Part shown: piece after piece, positions 53,743-61,334 of the stretch
Numbering within the stretch: position 1 is the stretch's first letter
Layout of the letters: each line of letters starts with the position of its first letter
From: Arthrobacter alpinus
GTDB taxonomy: Bacteria > Actinomycetota > Actinomycetes > Actinomycetales > Micrococcaceae
Assembly: GCF_001294625.1 (NCBI RefSeq)
Contig: NZ_CP012677.1
Location: 1,550,001-1,614,000, forward strand
DNA length: 64,000 nucleotides
Direction of reading: 5' to 3'
Made by a program: the position numbers and the translations under genes
Notes under the pieces: generated by a model
Database searches by the model: none
What the model was told of the DNA's origin: nothing
What the model saw: only the letters and a program-made list of their open reading frames with translations

Positions 53743-54621
53743 TCACTGGCCCATGACCGCATGGCATTTTCCGTGAGGACATGAACTGCCGGTCCGTGGG
53801 CTGGGGGCGACCTGAGCGTAGGGTAATACCCCGCTCCCCCGCCGCCCTACGATGAACCAGAGCCGAGTTGGGCCATACCAGCCACCTCCACCCTGCACAA
53901 TTTGCGGTGCTACCTTCCCCTTGGATACAGTCACGCACCAAAGGGGAGCCAAGTTATCCCTCTCCCCAGTAAATGTTGCTGAAGTGGCGTTCATGACTCT
54001 GCTCCAGCGCACCGTTTTTTGAGAATCAGGCGCAGCTTTGAAAGTTGCGCTCCATTGGCGGCAAACCGTGCGCCCATTCAAAGTGGACGCTGGCCAACAC
54101 CACGGTGTGATGTCCATTTCTCGCAAAAACGCCTGATCCAACCGGATACACTCTAGTCCGCCTATGCCACCGTCTGCCGTCTGCCGTCTTTTCATGGGCA
54201 GCCTGCCCCTGGTGGACATCCATGCCGCCGTCACACCAAACAATGGAACCAGCACCAGCAGCACCCCGAATTGTAGCCACGGGACAACGATGGGCGTGCC
54301 CCGGGAAAAGGATAACAAGACGACGACCGGCACGGCGCCTGCGAACAACCCCATCACCGTGCCAAGGAATGCCGTCAAGAACGTCTGCGAACCAGATAGG
54401 GCTTTTCGGAGCCGAATATCGGCCCCCACACTGGCAAGCGTGGCGTGGTCGCTGCGCCCGTCGGCCAGGGCCAGGCCGGCCCGTTATGCCTGCGGCGCTG
54501 AGCGTGAGGAGTGCGGCACCAATGACGACCATCCACAAGATGCTGGCGATGTCGGTGGTCGGCTCGTTTTGCACCTGGTACTCCTGGAGCTGTCCCCAGG
54601 TGACAAGTAGCATGGGGACAG
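53743..54621 (-). pseudogene. C-terminal remnant of an FtsX-like ABC permease, frameshifted
   Basis: From the right edge the frame reads TTDIASILWMVVIGAALLTLSAAGITG, then switches frame at about 54480 into LALADGRSDHATLASVGADIRLRKALSGSQTFLTAFLG and a TM helix pair ending near STRGRLPMKRR. This is the terminal part of an FtsX-family permease; the first several hundred residues are missing because the sequence begins at a Tn3-like repeat (54622). The last 120 codons before the stop at 53743 do not resemble the family and may be out-of-frame sequence. Confidence 0.65.
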
Positions 54622-54659
54622 CTCGAGGCTTGTGAAAAAATGAAATGTCCGACGGCAGG
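54622..54659 (+). repeat. Degenerate Tn3-type terminal repeat at the FtsX break
   Basis: The core GGCTTGTGAAAAA...TCCGACG (54627-54654) matches 24 of 28 bases of the intact 38-bp repeat at 63582-63619, in the same orientation. The GGGG tip and the terminal TAAG are not conserved here. Just to the left, GAGCTGTCCCC (54587-54597) and GGGGACAGCTC (54614-54624) form an 11-bp inverted repeat. Confidence 0.55.
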
Positions 54660-54895
54660 TTGAAGCGGCCAGATTTTCCGCACTGCTGACGGTCACCATG
54701 ATGAAGTGTTCGGCGCATCGCAAAGGGGGGGTGCGCGCTACGTTGGTGCCTACACGGCAACTGTTACCCATTGGATCTTTGTATTTGCTGACCTGGATGA
54801 GATCCCGGCCAGAGTCTCGCGAACGATCGTTGCCGAATTTTTTGCGGGCCGAGCGTTCGATATTTGTGGAATGCAAAAAAAGACACGGCCCTAAT

Positions 54896-55084
54896 TCACT
54901 GACGCCTTCGATTTGTAGTGAGCACCGCTGTCAGTATTACAGCACCTACCGCGCCGCCAATAATTCCAACTATCAAACCGCGGGATGAGTAGCCAACAAA
55001 AATTGTGATTAGTACCACAATAATAACGAACGTCGCTCCAGCTACAAGTAGGCGCAAAGGCCACGTAAATTCTCTTCTATTCAC
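54896..55084 (-). CDS. Small two-helix membrane protein paired with the RHS gene (candidate immunity protein)
   Basis: 62 residues from GTG 55084. A basic head (NRREFTWPLR) precedes two TM helices, LLVAGATFVIIVVLITIFV and GLIVGIIGGAVGAVILTAV, and the end is basic (TTNRRRQ). Its start lies inside the last codons of the RHS gene: the 8-nt overlap GTGAATAG contains both this start and the RHS stop. That tight coupling suggests joint production with the RHS protein, as for toxin/immunity pairs. No homologue is recognised, and a role in export of the RHS protein is an alternative. Confidence 0.6.
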   Translation of the reverse strand: MNRREFTWPLRLLVAGATFVIIVVLITIFVGYSSRGLIVGIIGGAVGAVILTAVLTTNRRRQ

Positions 55085-58000
55085 AGATAATCAGCCCCCC
55101 GATGGTCGTAGCAACCCCTACTGAAACAGCTCCGATTAGTACTGCCGGCCCTACAGTAATTATTGGTGCTTCCGGTCCTAAAACAGCGGTAAGCAACCCG
55201 CCGAAGAATCCGCCAGCGGCACCTCCGAGAACACCGCCAATTGCACTTTTTGCCACACAACTCCCGCAGCTATACCCCGTGGGGTCTGTGAGGTTGATGG
55301 GGTTGTTGGCTGCGTAGGCGTAGCGGTTGGCGTTGGCGGGGTCCAGGGGTTGGTCGAGGGTGTCCTGTTGGGTCCAGCGTCCGGTGGTGGGTTGGTAGTA
55401 GCGGGCCCCGTATTTGATCCATCCGGTGGTGCGGTCTTGTATCCCGTTTTTGAAGGTGTAGGGGTTTTGGACGCTCGCGTTGCCTCCGGCATCTTTGGTG
55501 ATGGTTTGCACGCCGTAGGGGTCGTAGCTGGTGGCGAGGGCGACGTAGTTCCCGGAGGTGATCAGGGCGGCGGGGTTCCCTGTCCCATCGGTAATGTAGA
55601 GCGATTGCATGCCGGTTGAAGTCCGGAGCATGAGGGGTTCCCCGGTGACGGGGTCGTGTTCGATGTAGGCGGTGGAGTTGTCCCGGTTGAGTTGTTCTAT
55701 CACGGGTTGTCCCTGGGCGTCGGTTCGCCCGTACGTGTATTTGTAGTATCCATTCGGGGTTGATTGGGCCAGGAGCTCATTGTTGGAGGCCCCCGCATAG
55801 CTGTAGTTGTACGTGGTCCCGGACTTCGTCGCCTGGGTCAGTTGGGAGGCCCCGTTGTAGCTGTAGGTCCCAGCCGGGTCTGCGGTGAGGTTTCCTGTCC
55901 CGTCGTAGCTGTACCCGGTGGTGCTGATCTGGTTTGCCGGGTTCGCGGTCAACGTTTGGGAAGTCGTGGTGGCGCCTGTGGTGGTGGCCGTGAGCCGGTT
56001 CCCGCGGACATCGTAGGAGTAGTTGTAGGTGATCGCGGGTGTGGTGCCGCCGGTGATGGCAGCCTGGGTGAGCCGGTTCGCCCCGTCATAGCTGTAGGCG
56101 GTCACGGAACCGGTGAGGTTGTCCTTCACCCATTGAATATTGGCCCGGTCCGCACTCGTGTTGGTGGGGCAAGTGGGGGCGACGGAGCCGGCGGCGTGGC
56201 AGTAAGAGATATCCATGACGGGCCGGTTGTCACTGTCCCCGGTGCCTACCTGGGCGGTGGTGCGGGTCACGCGGCCGGTGGTGTCGTAGTCGGTGTGGGT
56301 GTGTGCGGCCCAGGTGGTGTGGGCGGGGTTGGTATCCATCCAGGTATCGGTGCGCCGGCCCCTGTCATCGGTGGCGAACGCGAGGACATGGTTGCCACCG
56401 TTGTACTGGTACGTCAAGGACGTCGGCACCCCTGAGGCGTCAAAAGCATACGTTGTCGTCCCGCGCGTATCGGTGGTGGAGGCCAGGTTCGAGGCCCTGT
56501 CGTAGCCGTAACTGATGGTCCCCCCGCCTGCGGTGTTGGTTCGGGAGGTTAGCCGTCCCATCTGGTCATAGGCGTAGCTGGTTGTCCCGGCCCCATCGGT
56601 GCGGGTGAGGGTTTGTCCGTTGGTGTTGTAGGTGTACGCGATGGAGTGTGTGGTGTCGGAGAAGCTGGTCCCGGCCAGCCGGCCGACCCCGTCGTAGGAG
56701 TACGTCAAGGTCGTCCCGGCCCCGGTCGTCTGGGTCAACAGTCGCCCCCACACGTCATACGTCCTGGATTGGGCGGTCAGGGAAGACCCCGTGACCGGGG
56801 TCACCGTGGTCAGTTCATGATTGCTGTTGTACGTGTAGGAGGTTTTGTTGCTCCCGTTACCTGGTGCCAGGGCGGTCGCGACGGTCCCGTCCGTGTTGTG
56901 CGTCAGGGACGCGGTCGCGGCCAAGGCATCCGAAGCGGTGAGCGCGTTCCCGGCCCCGTCGAAAGTGAAAAGAGATTCGTTTCCAGCGCCACTGGTGGCC
57001 GAGGTGGGTAGATATTTGGTCGAGGCCGCCGTGTTGGCGTAGGCGAGTTGTGAGCTCGCCCCGCCCGGTGCCGTGGTCTGGGTCAGGGACTGGCCCATGT
57101 TCGCCCCGAAGGTGTTCGTGGTGGTTCCGGCGGTGGTCCCGGTTCCTTGGGTAGCCGTCAACGTGTCGAAGTCTGCTGTGTAGGTGCTCGAGCGTGCCCG
57201 GCCCATCGGATCGGTGACCGAAGCAACGCGTCCGGTGGTGGTGAGCGTGTAGGTGGTGTGGGGGCCGGTCGCGACCGCCACGGCCTGATCCGTGTTCGGG
57301 CCGGCCAACAGGGTCTGGGTGCTGGAGGGGTAGGCCAGGCGGGTGATGGAATTTCCTGGGGAACCAGTGGTGGTGTTGACTTGCTCGACCCTGGTCACCC
57401 GGCCGGTGGCGTCATAGCTGAAATTTGTCACCCCACCAGCCGGGGAGATCACCTGGGTGACCCGGTTGGCGGTGTAGCCAAAGGTCGTGGTCTTTCCGGC
57501 CAGATCCGTGAATCCTGTCAGATTCCCATAAGGGTCATGGGTGAAGGACACCGAGCGGGAAGATGCCCCGGAAATTTGAGATATGGAATTCAGCAACCCG
57601 GTGTAGGAATCGTAGGCCAGGGTTGCGGTCCGGGCCCCTGCCACACCGCGGGTTGAGAGGACCGTCGTGAGCTTCCCGGAGGTCCACGTCAGCGCGGTGG
57701 GGTTATTATTCCGATCGGTGACCTTCGTCGTTTTCCCATCCGTATTGAACGTCACCACCGACGCGGACGTCCGTGAAGTCAACACCCAGCCCGTCGAGCC
57801 GGTCTTCACCAGATCAGCCTTCACCCCGGCCGGGGACGTGTAGGCCGTCGAGGAACCAGTCACCGGGGTAAAGAGGGCCGAGTACCCATCCCCGGATGTA
57901 AACAACACCCCCGTCGGGGCCGTGGAAAGAGTCCCCGCCGAGTCGGCCGCCAGGGTCCACCGCGGTGCCACTATCCCGGCACTCGTATCCGTGGAAAGGG

Positions 58001-58400
58001 AATTGAAGCTCATTCCCAACCCCACATTGCTGCTAACACCAGGCAAGGAGAGGGCATTGACGCTGAGGGAGAGATTGCCGGTACCGACATCAATGGAGCC
58101 GCTGACTTGGTCACTGATCTGTACTGGAAACCGGGTCGCACCCGGGCGGGAACCCAACAACCCCAACGTTGACACATCCCCAGACGGCAACGCCGCAAAC
58201 GACGGGGCCGCAGCCCCCAAACCCACCGCGAACACCAACCCCAGGGTCACGGTCCCGGCAAGGGACGCCCGTCCCACCGAGCTTCCCCAGTGTTCCCTGA
58301 CAGCAAAATGGCTGGCGCGTAGTTTTCGTAGACATCGTCGTCCCCCGAAGCGAAGCGATAGTGATGGGCTATGTCTACTCCTGCCCAGACCAGAAGACAA
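55077..58400 (-). CDS. RHS/YD-repeat protein with short glycine-zipper C-terminal tip (putative polymorphic toxin)
   Basis: 1107 residues. A signal peptide follows a 40-residue basic head (LAGTVTLGLVFAVGLGAAAPSFA). Then come a beta-rich N-domain (GSIDVGTGNLSLSVNALSLPG) and many YD repeats (YSYDGVGRLAGT, YAYDQMGRLTSRT). The RHS core ends YGARYYQPTTGRWTQQDTLD...NPINLTDPTGY. The variable tip is only about 65 residues (1043-1107), with Cys at 1045, 1048 and 1106, and glycine-rich hydrophobic sequence (GGVLGGAAGGFFGGLL). No nuclease or other known enzyme motif is visible. It overlaps a small membrane gene. It may be a membrane-active toxin or an orphan RHS shell with a lost effector. Confidence 0.88.
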   Translation of the reverse strand: MSSGLGRSRHSPSLSLRFGGRRCLRKLRASHFAVREHWGSSVGRASLAGTVTLGLVFAVGLGAAAPSFAALPSGDVSTLGLLGSRPGATRFPVQISDQVSGSIDVGTGNLSLSVNALSLPGVSSNVGLGMSFNSLSTDTSAGIVAPRWTLAADSAGTLSTAPTGVLFTSGDGYSALFTPVTGSSTAYTSPAGVKADLVKTGSTGWVLTSRTSASVVTFNTDGKTTKVTDRNNNPTALTWTSGKLTTVLSTRGVAGARTATLAYDSYTGLLNSISQISGASSRSVSFTHDPYGNLTGFTDLAGKTTTFGYTANRVTQVISPAGGVTNFSYDATGRVTRVEQVNTTTGSPGNSITRLAYPSSTQTLLAGPNTDQAVAVATGPHTTYTLTTTGRVASVTDPMGRARSSTYTADFDTLTATQGTGTTAGTTTNTFGANMGQSLTQTTAPGGASSQLAYANTAASTKYLPTSATSGAGNESLFTFDGAGNALTASDALAATASLTHNTDGTVATALAPGNGSNKTSYTYNSNHELTTVTPVTGSSLTAQSRTYDVWGRLLTQTTGAGTTLTYSYDGVGRLAGTSFSDTTHSIAYTYNTNGQTLTRTDGAGTTSYAYDQMGRLTSRTNTAGGGTISYGYDRASNLASTTDTRGTTTYAFDASGVPTSLTYQYNGGNHVLAFATDDRGRRTDTWMDTNPAHTTWAAHTHTDYDTTGRVTRTTAQVGTGDSDNRPVMDISYCHAAGSVAPTCPTNTSADRANIQWVKDNLTGSVTAYSYDGANRLTQAAITGGTTPAITYNYSYDVRGNRLTATTTGATTTSQTLTANPANQISTTGYSYDGTGNLTADPAGTYSYNGASQLTQATKSGTTYNYSYAGASNNELLAQSTPNGYYKYTYGRTDAQGQPVIEQLNRDNSTAYIEHDPVTGEPLMLRTSTGMQSLYITDGTGNPAALITSGNYVALATSYDPYGVQTITKDAGGNASVQNPYTFKNGIQDRTTGWIKYGARYYQPTTGRWTQQDTLDQPLDPANANRYAYAANNPINLTDPTGYSCGSCVAKSAIGGVLGGAAGGFFGGLLTAVLGPEAPIITVGPAVLIGAVSVGVATTIGGLIICE

Positions 58401-58484: not shown

Positions 58485-59090
58485 TTAGTCGCTTGTTACG
58501 GGACTGTTGGCAGCATGGCGATAGTAGGTGGCGCGGGACCAGCCAACCAGTCGTGCGGCCTCCTGCGCTGTTCGTCCCTTCGCGCGTGCGTCCTTCACGA
58601 TCGCGAGCTTTTCGGCGACCACCGCGGGATCGGAAAGCGGCCGTCCAAAACTAGTGCCACTTTGACGTGCCGCCGCGATCCCGGCATTCACACGTTCAAC
58701 GATCAGCTCACGCTCATACTCGGCCAAGGACGCCAGCATGTTCAGCATCATCCGGCCGGTCGAGGTCGCCGGGTCGATCCCATCCGAAATGGATTGGACG
58801 AGCACGCCGCGTTCACGCATCAAGTTGACAGTGTTCAGGACATCGAGCAATGAACGACCGAGCCGGTCGACCCGCCAGACAACGACGGTGTCCCCGGCCT
58901 CGGCGTATTCAAGCAGCTTCTTCATCCCGGGCCGCTCGATCGCTGTCCGGCTTCCGGAAGTGACGTCGGCGAATACATCGCGTTTTTGCACTCCGGCGGT
59001 GACCAGCGCATCAAGTTGCAACGTCGCGTCCTGACTCGAAGTGCTCACGCGCGTATATCCCAAATGTCTCACATCATCATTTTGACTCAT
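58485..59090 (-). CDS. Serine recombinase (resolvase/invertase family)
   Basis: 201 residues from ATG 59090. The catalytic domain starts HLGYTRVSTSSQDATLQLDAL with Ser16, and continues with VVWRVDRLGRSLLDVL, ASLAEYERELIVERV and a C-terminal Hin-like HTH (AQEAARLVGWSRATYYRHA). It is complete. It begins only 30 bp inside a 38-bp-type transposon end, leaving no room for a usual res site of about 110 bp upstream. It could be a resolvase that lost its site or an invertase-like enzyme acting elsewhere. It precedes the RHS gene by 84 nt on the same strand. Confidence 0.92.
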   Translation of the reverse strand: MSQNDDVRHLGYTRVSTSSQDATLQLDALVTAGVQKRDVFADVTSGSRTAIERPGMKKLLEYAEAGDTVVVWRVDRLGRSLLDVLNTVNLMRERGVLVQSISDGIDPATSTGRMMLNMLASLAEYERELIVERVNAGIAAARQSGTSFGRPLSDPAVVAEKLAIVKDARAKGRTAQEAARLVGWSRATYYRHAANSPVTSD

Positions 59091-59520: not shown

Positions 59521-60120
59521 TCATGTCACAACCTCCTCTTTCTTTGACGGTGTGGTCTCTGGAGAGCTAACGGGATACCGCTCTGAGCTCAGGCCCAAGT
59601 GGGTGTCCATATCGAGTGTGAAACGTCCGTAGGGGTTGATGTGGGTCCAGAACAACGGGCTCAACCCGCGCCAGTCCTCAGGCGTCAGTAGGTCATGAAA
59701 GGTCGGATCTTCAAGGACTTCCTGCAACATCAGGGTGTTGACTAGGACCAAGGACGATTGGAGGAGGTGGAGGGCTAGCATGGAAACCTCAGTCGTTTCC
59801 CTATCCGGGCCGGTGAGGTCTCGGTTCTTGCCGTAGAAAACGACGTCGTTGCCGCTATTCCAGTTCTCCACCACCTGCAACCCAGAATTTATCTCTCGTC
59901 GGAGAGCTTCACTAGCGAGGTAGTCGGCGGCGAAGATCGTGCGAACCGCCCGGCCGAGTTCTTCCAGAGCCTGGTACGTGGAGTGTTTCGGTCCGCCCCG
60001 GGTGAAACGGCGCAGAATCGTCTCCGATTCGGCTGTGCCAAGCTTCAATGCTGTGGCGTATTTGATCATCTGGTCGTATTGCTGAGCGATGATCTCCCAA
60101 TTAATAGCCCTCGACATCAC
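59521..60120 (-). pseudogene. Tn3-family transposase, C-terminal fragment
   Basis: 199 residues. [36 protein letters not shown] and [28 protein letters not shown] are Tn3 transposase C-terminal blocks, the second carrying the catalytic Glu. [28 protein letters not shown] is the usual end. About 800 N-terminal residues are missing; similarity stops at 60120. It is of a different lineage from both other transposases in this window, so a separate element once inserted here. Confidence 0.88.
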
Positions 60121-60932: not shown

Positions 60933-61334
60933 ATGGATGAATCTTGCGTGCATCAGGTGTCGTGCGGAATGCTTATCTGCGCGGGGCGGGTGCTTCTTGT
61001 ACACCGGTCGTCGTCGAAGGCACGATATCCGAATGTTTGGGACTTCCCGGGAGGTCACCTTGAACGGGGCGAAAATAGTCGTCAAGCGCTTGTGCGGGAG
61101 CTTCGAGAAGAGTTGGGCGTAGAAATCACTCCGCCGACTGGGCACTCGCTGCTGACCCGCCGGGATGCTGAGATATTCCAAGAAATATGGAAGGTTGAAG
61201 CGTGGGAAGGTGCGATCATCAATGCTGCACCCGATGAACACGACGCCATCGGATGGTTCAGGTTGGACGAGGCAATGTCCTTAGACCTAGCCGATGACGG
61301 CTACCCAGCACTCTTCAATCAGGTGCTGCCCTGA
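60933..61334 (+). CDS. Nudix hydrolase, copy 1
   Basis: 133 residues from ATG 60933. The Nudix box is GGHLERGENSRQALVRELREELGV, with the catalytic Glu pair in REEL. SCGMLICAGRVLLVHRSSSKARYPNVWDFPGG precedes it, as in MutT/8-oxo-dGTP or NDP-sugar type enzymes. It hydrolyses a nucleoside diphosphate linked to another moiety; the substrate is unknown. A second copy lies 1.2 kb downstream, and I count 99 of 133 identical residues. Confidence 0.9.
   Translation: MDESCVHQVSCGMLICAGRVLLVHRSSSKARYPNVWDFPGGHLERGENSRQALVRELREELGVEITPPTGHSLLTRRDAEIFQEIWKVEAWEGAIINAAPDEHDAIGWFRLDEAMSLDLADDGYPALFNQVLP

Follow-up and report, generated by a model that had tools for sequence, protein, structure and literature searches.

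A short hydrophobic RHS tip and its overlapping two-helix gene in Arthrobacter alpinus: a candidate membrane toxin and immunity pair of a diverse Micrococcales RHS lineage

The window analyzed here is a 64,000 nt stretch of DNA from Arthrobacter alpinus, an actinobacterium of soil type (assembly GCF_001294625.1, contig NZ_CP012677.1, positions 1,550,001 to 1,614,000). It contains a gene for an RHS protein with a short hydrophobic C-terminal tip, and the end of this gene is overlapped by a small gene encoding a predicted two-helix membrane protein (Table 1). The longest open frame of the RHS gene spans 55077-58400 on the minus strand and would give 1107 aa from a TTG start. We place the start at the GTG at position 58277, since this fits the length of the database protein P0002 (1066 aa) and since a clean signal peptide results. 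A signal-peptide-like start was found in 24 of 32 full-length RHS proteins using a simple rule.

The window protein carries RHS repeats (PF05593, 95.8 bits with a cut-off of 22) and an Rhs-associated core domain (TIGR03696, 69.4 bits with a cut-off of 32.5) that ends at DPxG, as is typical of Rhs/YD proteins. In an AlphaFold2 model of the full-length protein, residues 28-972 except 433-454 form beta structure with a predicted local distance difference test score (pLDDT) of at least 50. The best Foldseek matches of this model are Rhs cocoons and cores of the type VI secretion system (T6SS), with E-values down to 2.3e-47, at modest TM-scores (0.28-0.45 among the first 13 matches) and large root-mean-square deviations. 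As modeled, the protein has the cocoon fold of Rhs/YD polymorphic toxins. Its match to Tse5 in the PDB (8cp6) falls in the shell. The only cysteines of the protein are the three in the tip and a pair in the core, and the core pair is invariant among 28 aligned homologs.

The shell ends in a putative aspartyl autoprotease motif. Among 42 RHS cores, D972 is nearly invariant and D998 invariant, and the motif aligns with the QQD...DPTG of RhsP, an Rhs protein of solved structure. D972 and D998 correspond to D1141 and D1164, the catalytic aspartyl pair of the Tse5 autoprotease (PMC10684867). The two residues are spaced by 26 here and by 23 in Tse5, and the surplus matches the net three-residue difference in the alignment with Tse5. 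If the motif is kept as an autoprotease, cleavage would release the tip.

Table 1. Features of the window RHS locus, of the second RHS locus in the same genome and of a less hydrophobic class of tips.
Feature	Position	Strand	Description	Basis
RHS protein coding sequence	55077..58277	minus	1066 aa, GTG start	PF05593 and TIGR03696 over cut-off
Sec-type signal peptide	58194..58277	minus	residues 1-28 (...AAAPSFA/ALP, cut at the slash)	read from sequence
RHS shell (beta cocoon)	55275..58193	minus	residues 29-1001, conserved Cys pair 693/703	AlphaFold2, Foldseek
Putative Rhs aspartyl autoprotease motif	55275..55376	minus	WTQQD(972)...D(998)PTG	conservation and alignment
C-terminal tip	55080..55274	minus	65 aa, hydrophobic, Gly-rich, Cys 3/6/64, predicted helical hairpin	sequence; AlphaFold2
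Two-helix membrane protein gene	54896..55084	minus	62 aa, predicted immunity protein	GTG start, 8-nt overlap with RHS gene
Second RHS gene	L010 3307-6687	opposite to first	61-aa Gly-rich tip, two Cys	
Second partner gene	L010 6688-6876		62 aa, two-helix; no gap after second RHS gene	
Less hydrophobic tip class	L022 6127-6423; L028 8974-9297; L038 9085-9417, 10189-10560; L059 8974-9312; L091 1201-1500; L141 1831-2163		99-124 aa, CxxxCxxFG-like start	

Exactly 65 residues remain after NPINLTDPTG. This confirms the original prediction, made from the window alone, that the core ends at DPTG(Y) and is followed by a hydrophobic tip of about 65 residues with three cysteines. The partner gene that it had claimed was found as well: its GTG lies inside the end of the RHS gene, giving an overlap of 8 nt, and its product has two hydrophobic segments. 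AlphaFold2 predicts helices at residues 3-31 and 41-62 of the tip. The G+C content is 63% over the final kb of the core and lower behind it, at 54% for the tip and 47% for the partner, as expected of an acquired tip. The glycine repeats emphasized in the prediction are present, but their regularity is within chance: a GxxxGxxxGxxxG ladder arises in 1786 of 20000 shuffles and is, given the composition of the tip, not remarkable by itself.

Neither the tip nor the partner matches a Pfam or NCBIfam family at E 0.01, and the partner has no PADLOC match, so a known family for the pair was rejected at this level. A phage origin was likewise rejected, with no match in the phage collection at 1e-20. 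One relative of the partner was found, P0001, which is 69% identical. In 295 genomes of the family the pair has only weak matches (tip at E of at least 3.9e-5, partner at least 2.4e-4), most of them in long open frames, and none of 68 other RHS protein matches checked by eye has a tip resembling that of the window.

What lifts the locus above chance is not the glycine ladder but the linkage to a two-helix gene, which recurs across relatives. For a discovery survey we aligned 28 homologs, scanned genomes for the conserved core, which gave 72 loci, and read the C-termini via the core pattern, own genome included. An open reading frame (ORF) of 40-130 aa was taken as linked if its start lay between -60 and +130 nt relative to the RHS stop, and its transmembrane (TM) segments were counted. 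We left out locus L010 as a copy of L009, C-termini without a stop or with less than 300 nt behind it, and 5 of 94 C-termini with another core ending. The usual core ending and a tip of at most 130 aa were found in 73 of the 94; of these, 57 are followed by a linked ORF with two or more TM segments and 65 by one with at least one. Among RHS proteins with tips longer than 130 aa, none of 16 has a neighbor with at least two TM segments and one of 16 has a neighbor with a single segment. At control stops of other ORFs in the same loci, which are mechanical six-frame ORFs and not checked genes, the counts are 5/650 for ORFs of at least 300 aa, 21/1295 for at least 200 aa and 1/378 for at least 400 aa.

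The survey was repeated on a hold-out set with the criteria fixed beforehand, using a core-only profile over 396 genomes of the order, 395 of the own family, and 349 and 221 of two further families. These draws overlap in some genomes, and in the order draw the 30 places with a locus were read. Dropped were 48 duplicates, 7 C-termini by motif, 6 with a short flank and 4 without a stop. The strong-core matches yielded 26 tips, all short, that are new by exact tip sequence and may include close relatives of discovery tips or genomes; 22 have a two-TM neighbor and 25 a neighbor with at least one TM segment. In 12 C-termini from other RHS lineages, a two-TM neighbor accompanies 4 of the 5 short tips and none of the 7 long ones.

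We pooled 100 non-redundant tips of 45-130 aa from Micrococcales and some relatives, including the two tips of the own genome and 5 from other lineages, and leaving out exact duplicates and tips below 45 aa. Of these 100 tips, 83 are followed by an ORF with two or more TM segments and 93 by one with at least one. Dinucleotide shuffles of the pooled stretches gave 0/2000 and the reverse strand 0/100; together with the control stops they rule out a chance two-helix ORF. Of the seven tips that lack a TM partner, four (L025, L036, L043, L091) are followed by a membrane ORF slightly beyond the limits. No membrane ORF lies near the limits in L058 and L121, and the tip of L018 at 11945 is probably an out-of-frame artifact. 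On plasmids, a two-TM gene is linked to 5/5 Micrococcales RHS genes, of which two share tip and partner and two repeat hold-out pairs, leaving only two new pairs. The RHS lineage itself is sporadic: at E 1e-25 it was detected in 17/395 genomes of the own family and in 17/349 and 13/221 of the two other families. The same tip on many RHS proteins without a two-helix gene, which the original prediction had named as speaking against it, was not seen; for the window tip, having no close relative in the 295 family genomes, this comparison carries little weight.

The tips share a composition and a pattern of cysteines. Over the pooled set the mean grand average of hydropathy (GRAVY) is 0.83, Gly and Ala make up 38% of the residues, and 8% are charged. 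The motif GxxxGxxxG occurs in 50 tips (shuffled mean 34.9, maximum 46), and a glycine zipper by the literature definition in 80 (shuffled mean 68.3, maximum 80). Two cysteines are present in 77 tips, four in 12, none in 6, three in 4 and one in 1. The number is therefore even in 95/100; 5000 binomial draws, with the tips treated as independent, average 50.8 and never exceed 68. The two cysteines sit near opposite ends in 35 of the 77 two-Cys tips, the first no more than about 12 residues from the start and the last no more than 12 from the end. When 32 tips chosen for end-placed cysteines were aligned, two hydrophobic stretches could be seen by eye between them. Together with the helices predicted for the window tip, these patterns suggest a helical hairpin with its ends joined by a disulfide.

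Many class II bacteriocins need a membrane receptor or act on a membrane-bound enzyme. The tips could be antibacterial peptides of this type, with the partner shielding the receptor. Such peptides would show the same genomic linkage as pore formers, the great variety of tips and partners would suit many receptors, and less hydrophobic tips do exist; in that class a two-TM neighbor lies within the limits in 5/7 cases, and L022 has a one-TM neighbor. Most tips have the hydrophobic, Gly/Ala-rich and weakly charged composition described above, however, and the precedents among toxins on Rhs and contact-dependent inhibition (CDI) scaffolds act by membrane depolarization. No common receptor site is visible either, because an alignment of the 100 tips has no nearly invariant column. 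We therefore consider a receptor-dependent peptide rather unlikely and favor tips that permeabilize the membrane.

RHS proteins with similar cores differ in what follows. Among 125 like-core pairs, the tips and the partners are both unlike in 119, so that a variable tip sits on a conserved core with an adjacent cognate gene, as in Rhs/YD proteins. A quick tree built from 86 cores requires 33 changes of the main tip class, compared with a shuffled mean of 29. Tip classes are mixed over similar cores, and as the changes are as many as by shuffling, the tip class retains no visible trace of the core. In L032, L038, L045 and L058 a core fragment, a tip and a membrane gene form tandem cassettes, the last cassette of L058 having no membrane gene.

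Tip and partner, both hydrophobic and linked, might also be a membrane anchor or export module that keeps the RHS shell on the cell's own surface, since a secreted Gram-positive RHS protein may need holding at the envelope. An anchor, however, does not call for the diversification seen in like-core pairs, it would be severed by the conserved autoprotease site, and the tandem cassettes suit displacement of toxins instead. This makes an anchor improbable.

A toxin with its own immunity protein, the reading that we prefer, agrees with how tips and partners vary together. Over 82 pairs, tip similarity correlates with partner similarity (r 0.30, 0/2000 permutations), and the result is the same when core similarity is taken into account. 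Partners are related where the tips are closest: four tip pairs exceed a normalized score of 0.5, and their partners score 0.95, 0.73, 0.32 and 0.25, with an all-pair median of 0.09. In three diverged homologous pairs, synonymous divergence (dS) is saturated or at least 1.9, and nonsynonymous divergence (dN) is lower, at 0.31-0.65 in two of them; in the third it is 0.49 for the tip and 1.01 for the partner. This is no more than consistent with tip and partner being translated and kept by purifying selection.

The original prediction had also allowed that the tip may be an inert remnant. Such a remnant would come from a lost toxin, and the window tip is indeed short and matches no family. The wider survey does not support this. 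Remnants would hardly be expected as 100 different tips with even cysteine numbers in 95 and a linked TM gene retained in 93, nor would dN be expected to stay below dS in the diverged pairs, and we find an inert remnant scarcely credible.

A second RHS gene lies about 6 kb from the first on the other strand of the same genome, and the two tips are 12 kb apart. Judged by eye, its tip is unlike that of the window, and its two-helix partner is unrelated to the window partner. The second pair recurs in a tandem array in another genus (G571), with 59/61 aligned tip residues and 59/62 aligned partner residues identical. Directly behind the second pair in the own genome we noticed a decayed stretch of RHS core (L010 6939-7370, PF05593 match C1:1617988-1618089), a footprint of the kind expected where an older tip has been displaced by a new one.

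Both genes have mobile-element sequences next to them. The first adjoins a Tn3-family resolvase and a transposase end (window 58485-59090 and 59521-60120). Next to the second, a resolvase, a 988-aa ORF resembling a whole Tn3 transposase and a further apparent transposase end were read from the sequence (L010 2001-2678, 7391-7963, 8039-11005). Several further RHS loci also contain relatives of the resolvase. Two similar Nudix-like ORFs, noted by eye, lie between the RHS genes of the genome, with starts about 1.6 kb apart (window 60933-61334 and L010 1559-1960). On the other side of the window pair, two overlapping minus-strand frames (53743-54760) together resemble, by eye, a broken permease-like membrane protein.

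Scanning the 100 tips and 93 partners against Pfam and NCBIfam, and the partners against PADLOC, gave scattered matches with at most 4 members per family (for partners in Pfam, among the 25 listed of the 42 families matched). One partner matches DUF4190 at 9.6e-12 and may be an ORF other than the cognate partner. Among the papers listed by open-access literature searches, none dealt with membrane-peptide RHS tips of Micrococcales. For homology with Tse5-CT, Tsi5 or CdiI, described below, the analysis covered these family scans, in which the window pair has no match.

Secreted RHS/YD proteins of Gram-positive bacteria, such as WapA of Bacillus, have a variable tip and an adjacent immunity gene. 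The window protein is likewise a secreted Gram-positive RHS scaffold with a variable tip and an adjacent gene, but known WapA tips are larger enzymes. WapA is also named in PMC10684867.

A close parallel is Tse5/Tsi5 of Pseudomonas aeruginosa, which combines an Rhs cocoon, a DPxG aspartyl autocleavage motif, a membrane tip and two-TM immunity (PMC10684867, PMC9637101), the features predicted here from sequence. The 149-aa Tse5-CT inserts into membranes, forms pores and depolarizes cells, and two TM regions are predicted in Tsi5, which confers immunity (PMC9637101). Tse5 differs in being delivered by the T6SS and in having a PAAR-like N-terminus and a longer tip, whereas the proteins studied here have a Sec-type signal peptide and tips of mostly 50-110 aa. 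The paired cysteines of the tip and the roughly 100 different versions also set them apart from Tse5.

CDI ionophores resemble the present system in their polymorphic tips, which in CDI depolarize membranes, and in their small immunity proteins, which are two-helix hairpins of 72-100 aa and more variable than the toxins (PMC11630599). They sit on a CdiA scaffold, however, as a five-helix ionophore domain behind a separate entry domain; the window protein has an RHS scaffold instead, and its complete tip comprises 65 aa and roughly two helices. A small hydrophobic tip predicted as two membrane helices is also known as W-TIP, which has RxxR in the first helix and W-TIP in the second and is described as restricted to proteobacteria (PMC3482391). 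The window tip contains neither Arg nor Trp and is not a W-TIP. The same 2012 survey of polymorphic toxins describes some two-TM immunity families, and its abstract names one pore-forming domain (PMC3482391). EsxX, TelE and TspA of Gram-positive bacteria have glycine-zipper C-termini that depolarize membranes, and membrane-bound immunity is described for EsxX and TspA (PMC12744356). Our system may resemble them in a glycine zipper of the tips, and it resembles them in the predicted membrane partner and the Gram-positive host; depolarization is known for these toxins. They are delivered by the type VII secretion system and not by an RHS cocoon, and the main text of PMC12744356 makes no mention of disulfides. 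The system thus appears to be a known kind of weapon, an RHS toxin with immunity, in a form that the literature searched does not show, given the many unrelated minimal tips, the paired cysteines, the Sec-type export and a lineage that uses little else.

A variable secreted peptide with a variable membrane partner could also be a peptide signal and its receptor, serving kin recognition instead of killing. Two short helices with almost no soluble part would make a poor receptor, however, and the genes are arranged like toxin/immunity pairs, for example Tse5/Tsi5; we regard a signal as very improbable.

Several observations weigh against a pore-forming toxin with cognate immunity or limit how far the data carry it. 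The AlphaFold2 model of the window tip is of low confidence (pLDDT 57), and the full-length model has no resolved part beyond residue 979, which includes D998 and the tip. The three cysteines of the window tip are a rare number among the tips, and a disulfide joining the ends would not account for the third. The less hydrophobic minority (L022, L038, L059, L091 and L141 with four cysteines, L028 with two) may act otherwise. The correlation between tips and partners leans on a few close pairs, and below a tip score of about 0.5 the partner likeness is mostly background. The core tree is poorly resolved, with 19/83 inner branches well supported, and these alone force 14 changes. Three near-identical pairs have few changes, and in two of them dN of the tips is about equal to dS, giving little sign of constraint. 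Partner topology is mixed: lysine plus arginine is higher in the tails than in the loop in 56/79 partners and lower in 23/79, so that a uniform topology was not found. Finally, TM segments were called by Kyte-Doolittle hydropathy only, and partner start codons were chosen mechanically.

How such a system might work can be outlined in four steps. Sec would export the RHS protein, whose beta cocoon would fold and enclose the hydrophobic tip. The aspartyl autoprotease, as its conserved motif suggests, would then cut just after DPTG and leave the tip loose inside the cocoon. Once a susceptible bacterium is contacted, the tip, a hairpin of two helices whose ends a disulfide probably joins, would enter the cytoplasmic membrane, oligomerize and dissipate the ion gradient. 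In the producer membrane the two-helix protein would block insertion or assembly of its own tip only.

Taken together, the toxin and immunity organization that the original prediction had proposed is strongly supported by the linkage with its controls, the hold-out set, the diversification and the autoprotease motif, and our preferred reading of the locus is a polymorphic toxin/immunity module belonging to an RHS lineage of Micrococcales. For the pore, the proposal stands less firmly: because of the composition of the tips, the two-helix partners and the analogy with Tse5/Tsi5, the window pair is probably a membrane-permeabilizing tip with its cognate two-helix immunity protein. A wider proposal, for which we see the balance as even, is that the RHS cocoon of this lineage carries minimal bacteriocin-like membrane peptides. 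These would be helical hairpins of 50-100 residues whose ends are often clasped together by a disulfide, so that both would stay on the outer side of the membrane under attack. Every hairpin would come with a dedicated two-helix antidote, and repeated invention or exchange would have produced at least 100 forms that belong to no known toxin or immunity family.

The tips known from RHS proteins of Gram-positive bacteria are mainly enzymes. The actinobacterial lineage described here seems to rely on little but small membrane peptides and two-helix partners, and this looks like an unrecognized family of antibacterial membrane toxins, with dozens of unrelated versions of the pair in relatives. The small partner genes may escape annotation; of the 5 plasmid copies, the partner is present in the gene table, itself incomplete by design, for one. 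About 80 to 100 candidate toxin/immunity pairs are now at hand that are small enough for synthesis. The tips would make it possible to test directly how hydrophobic peptides are carried by a soluble cocoon, and the partners would let the specificity of two-helix immunity proteins be studied.

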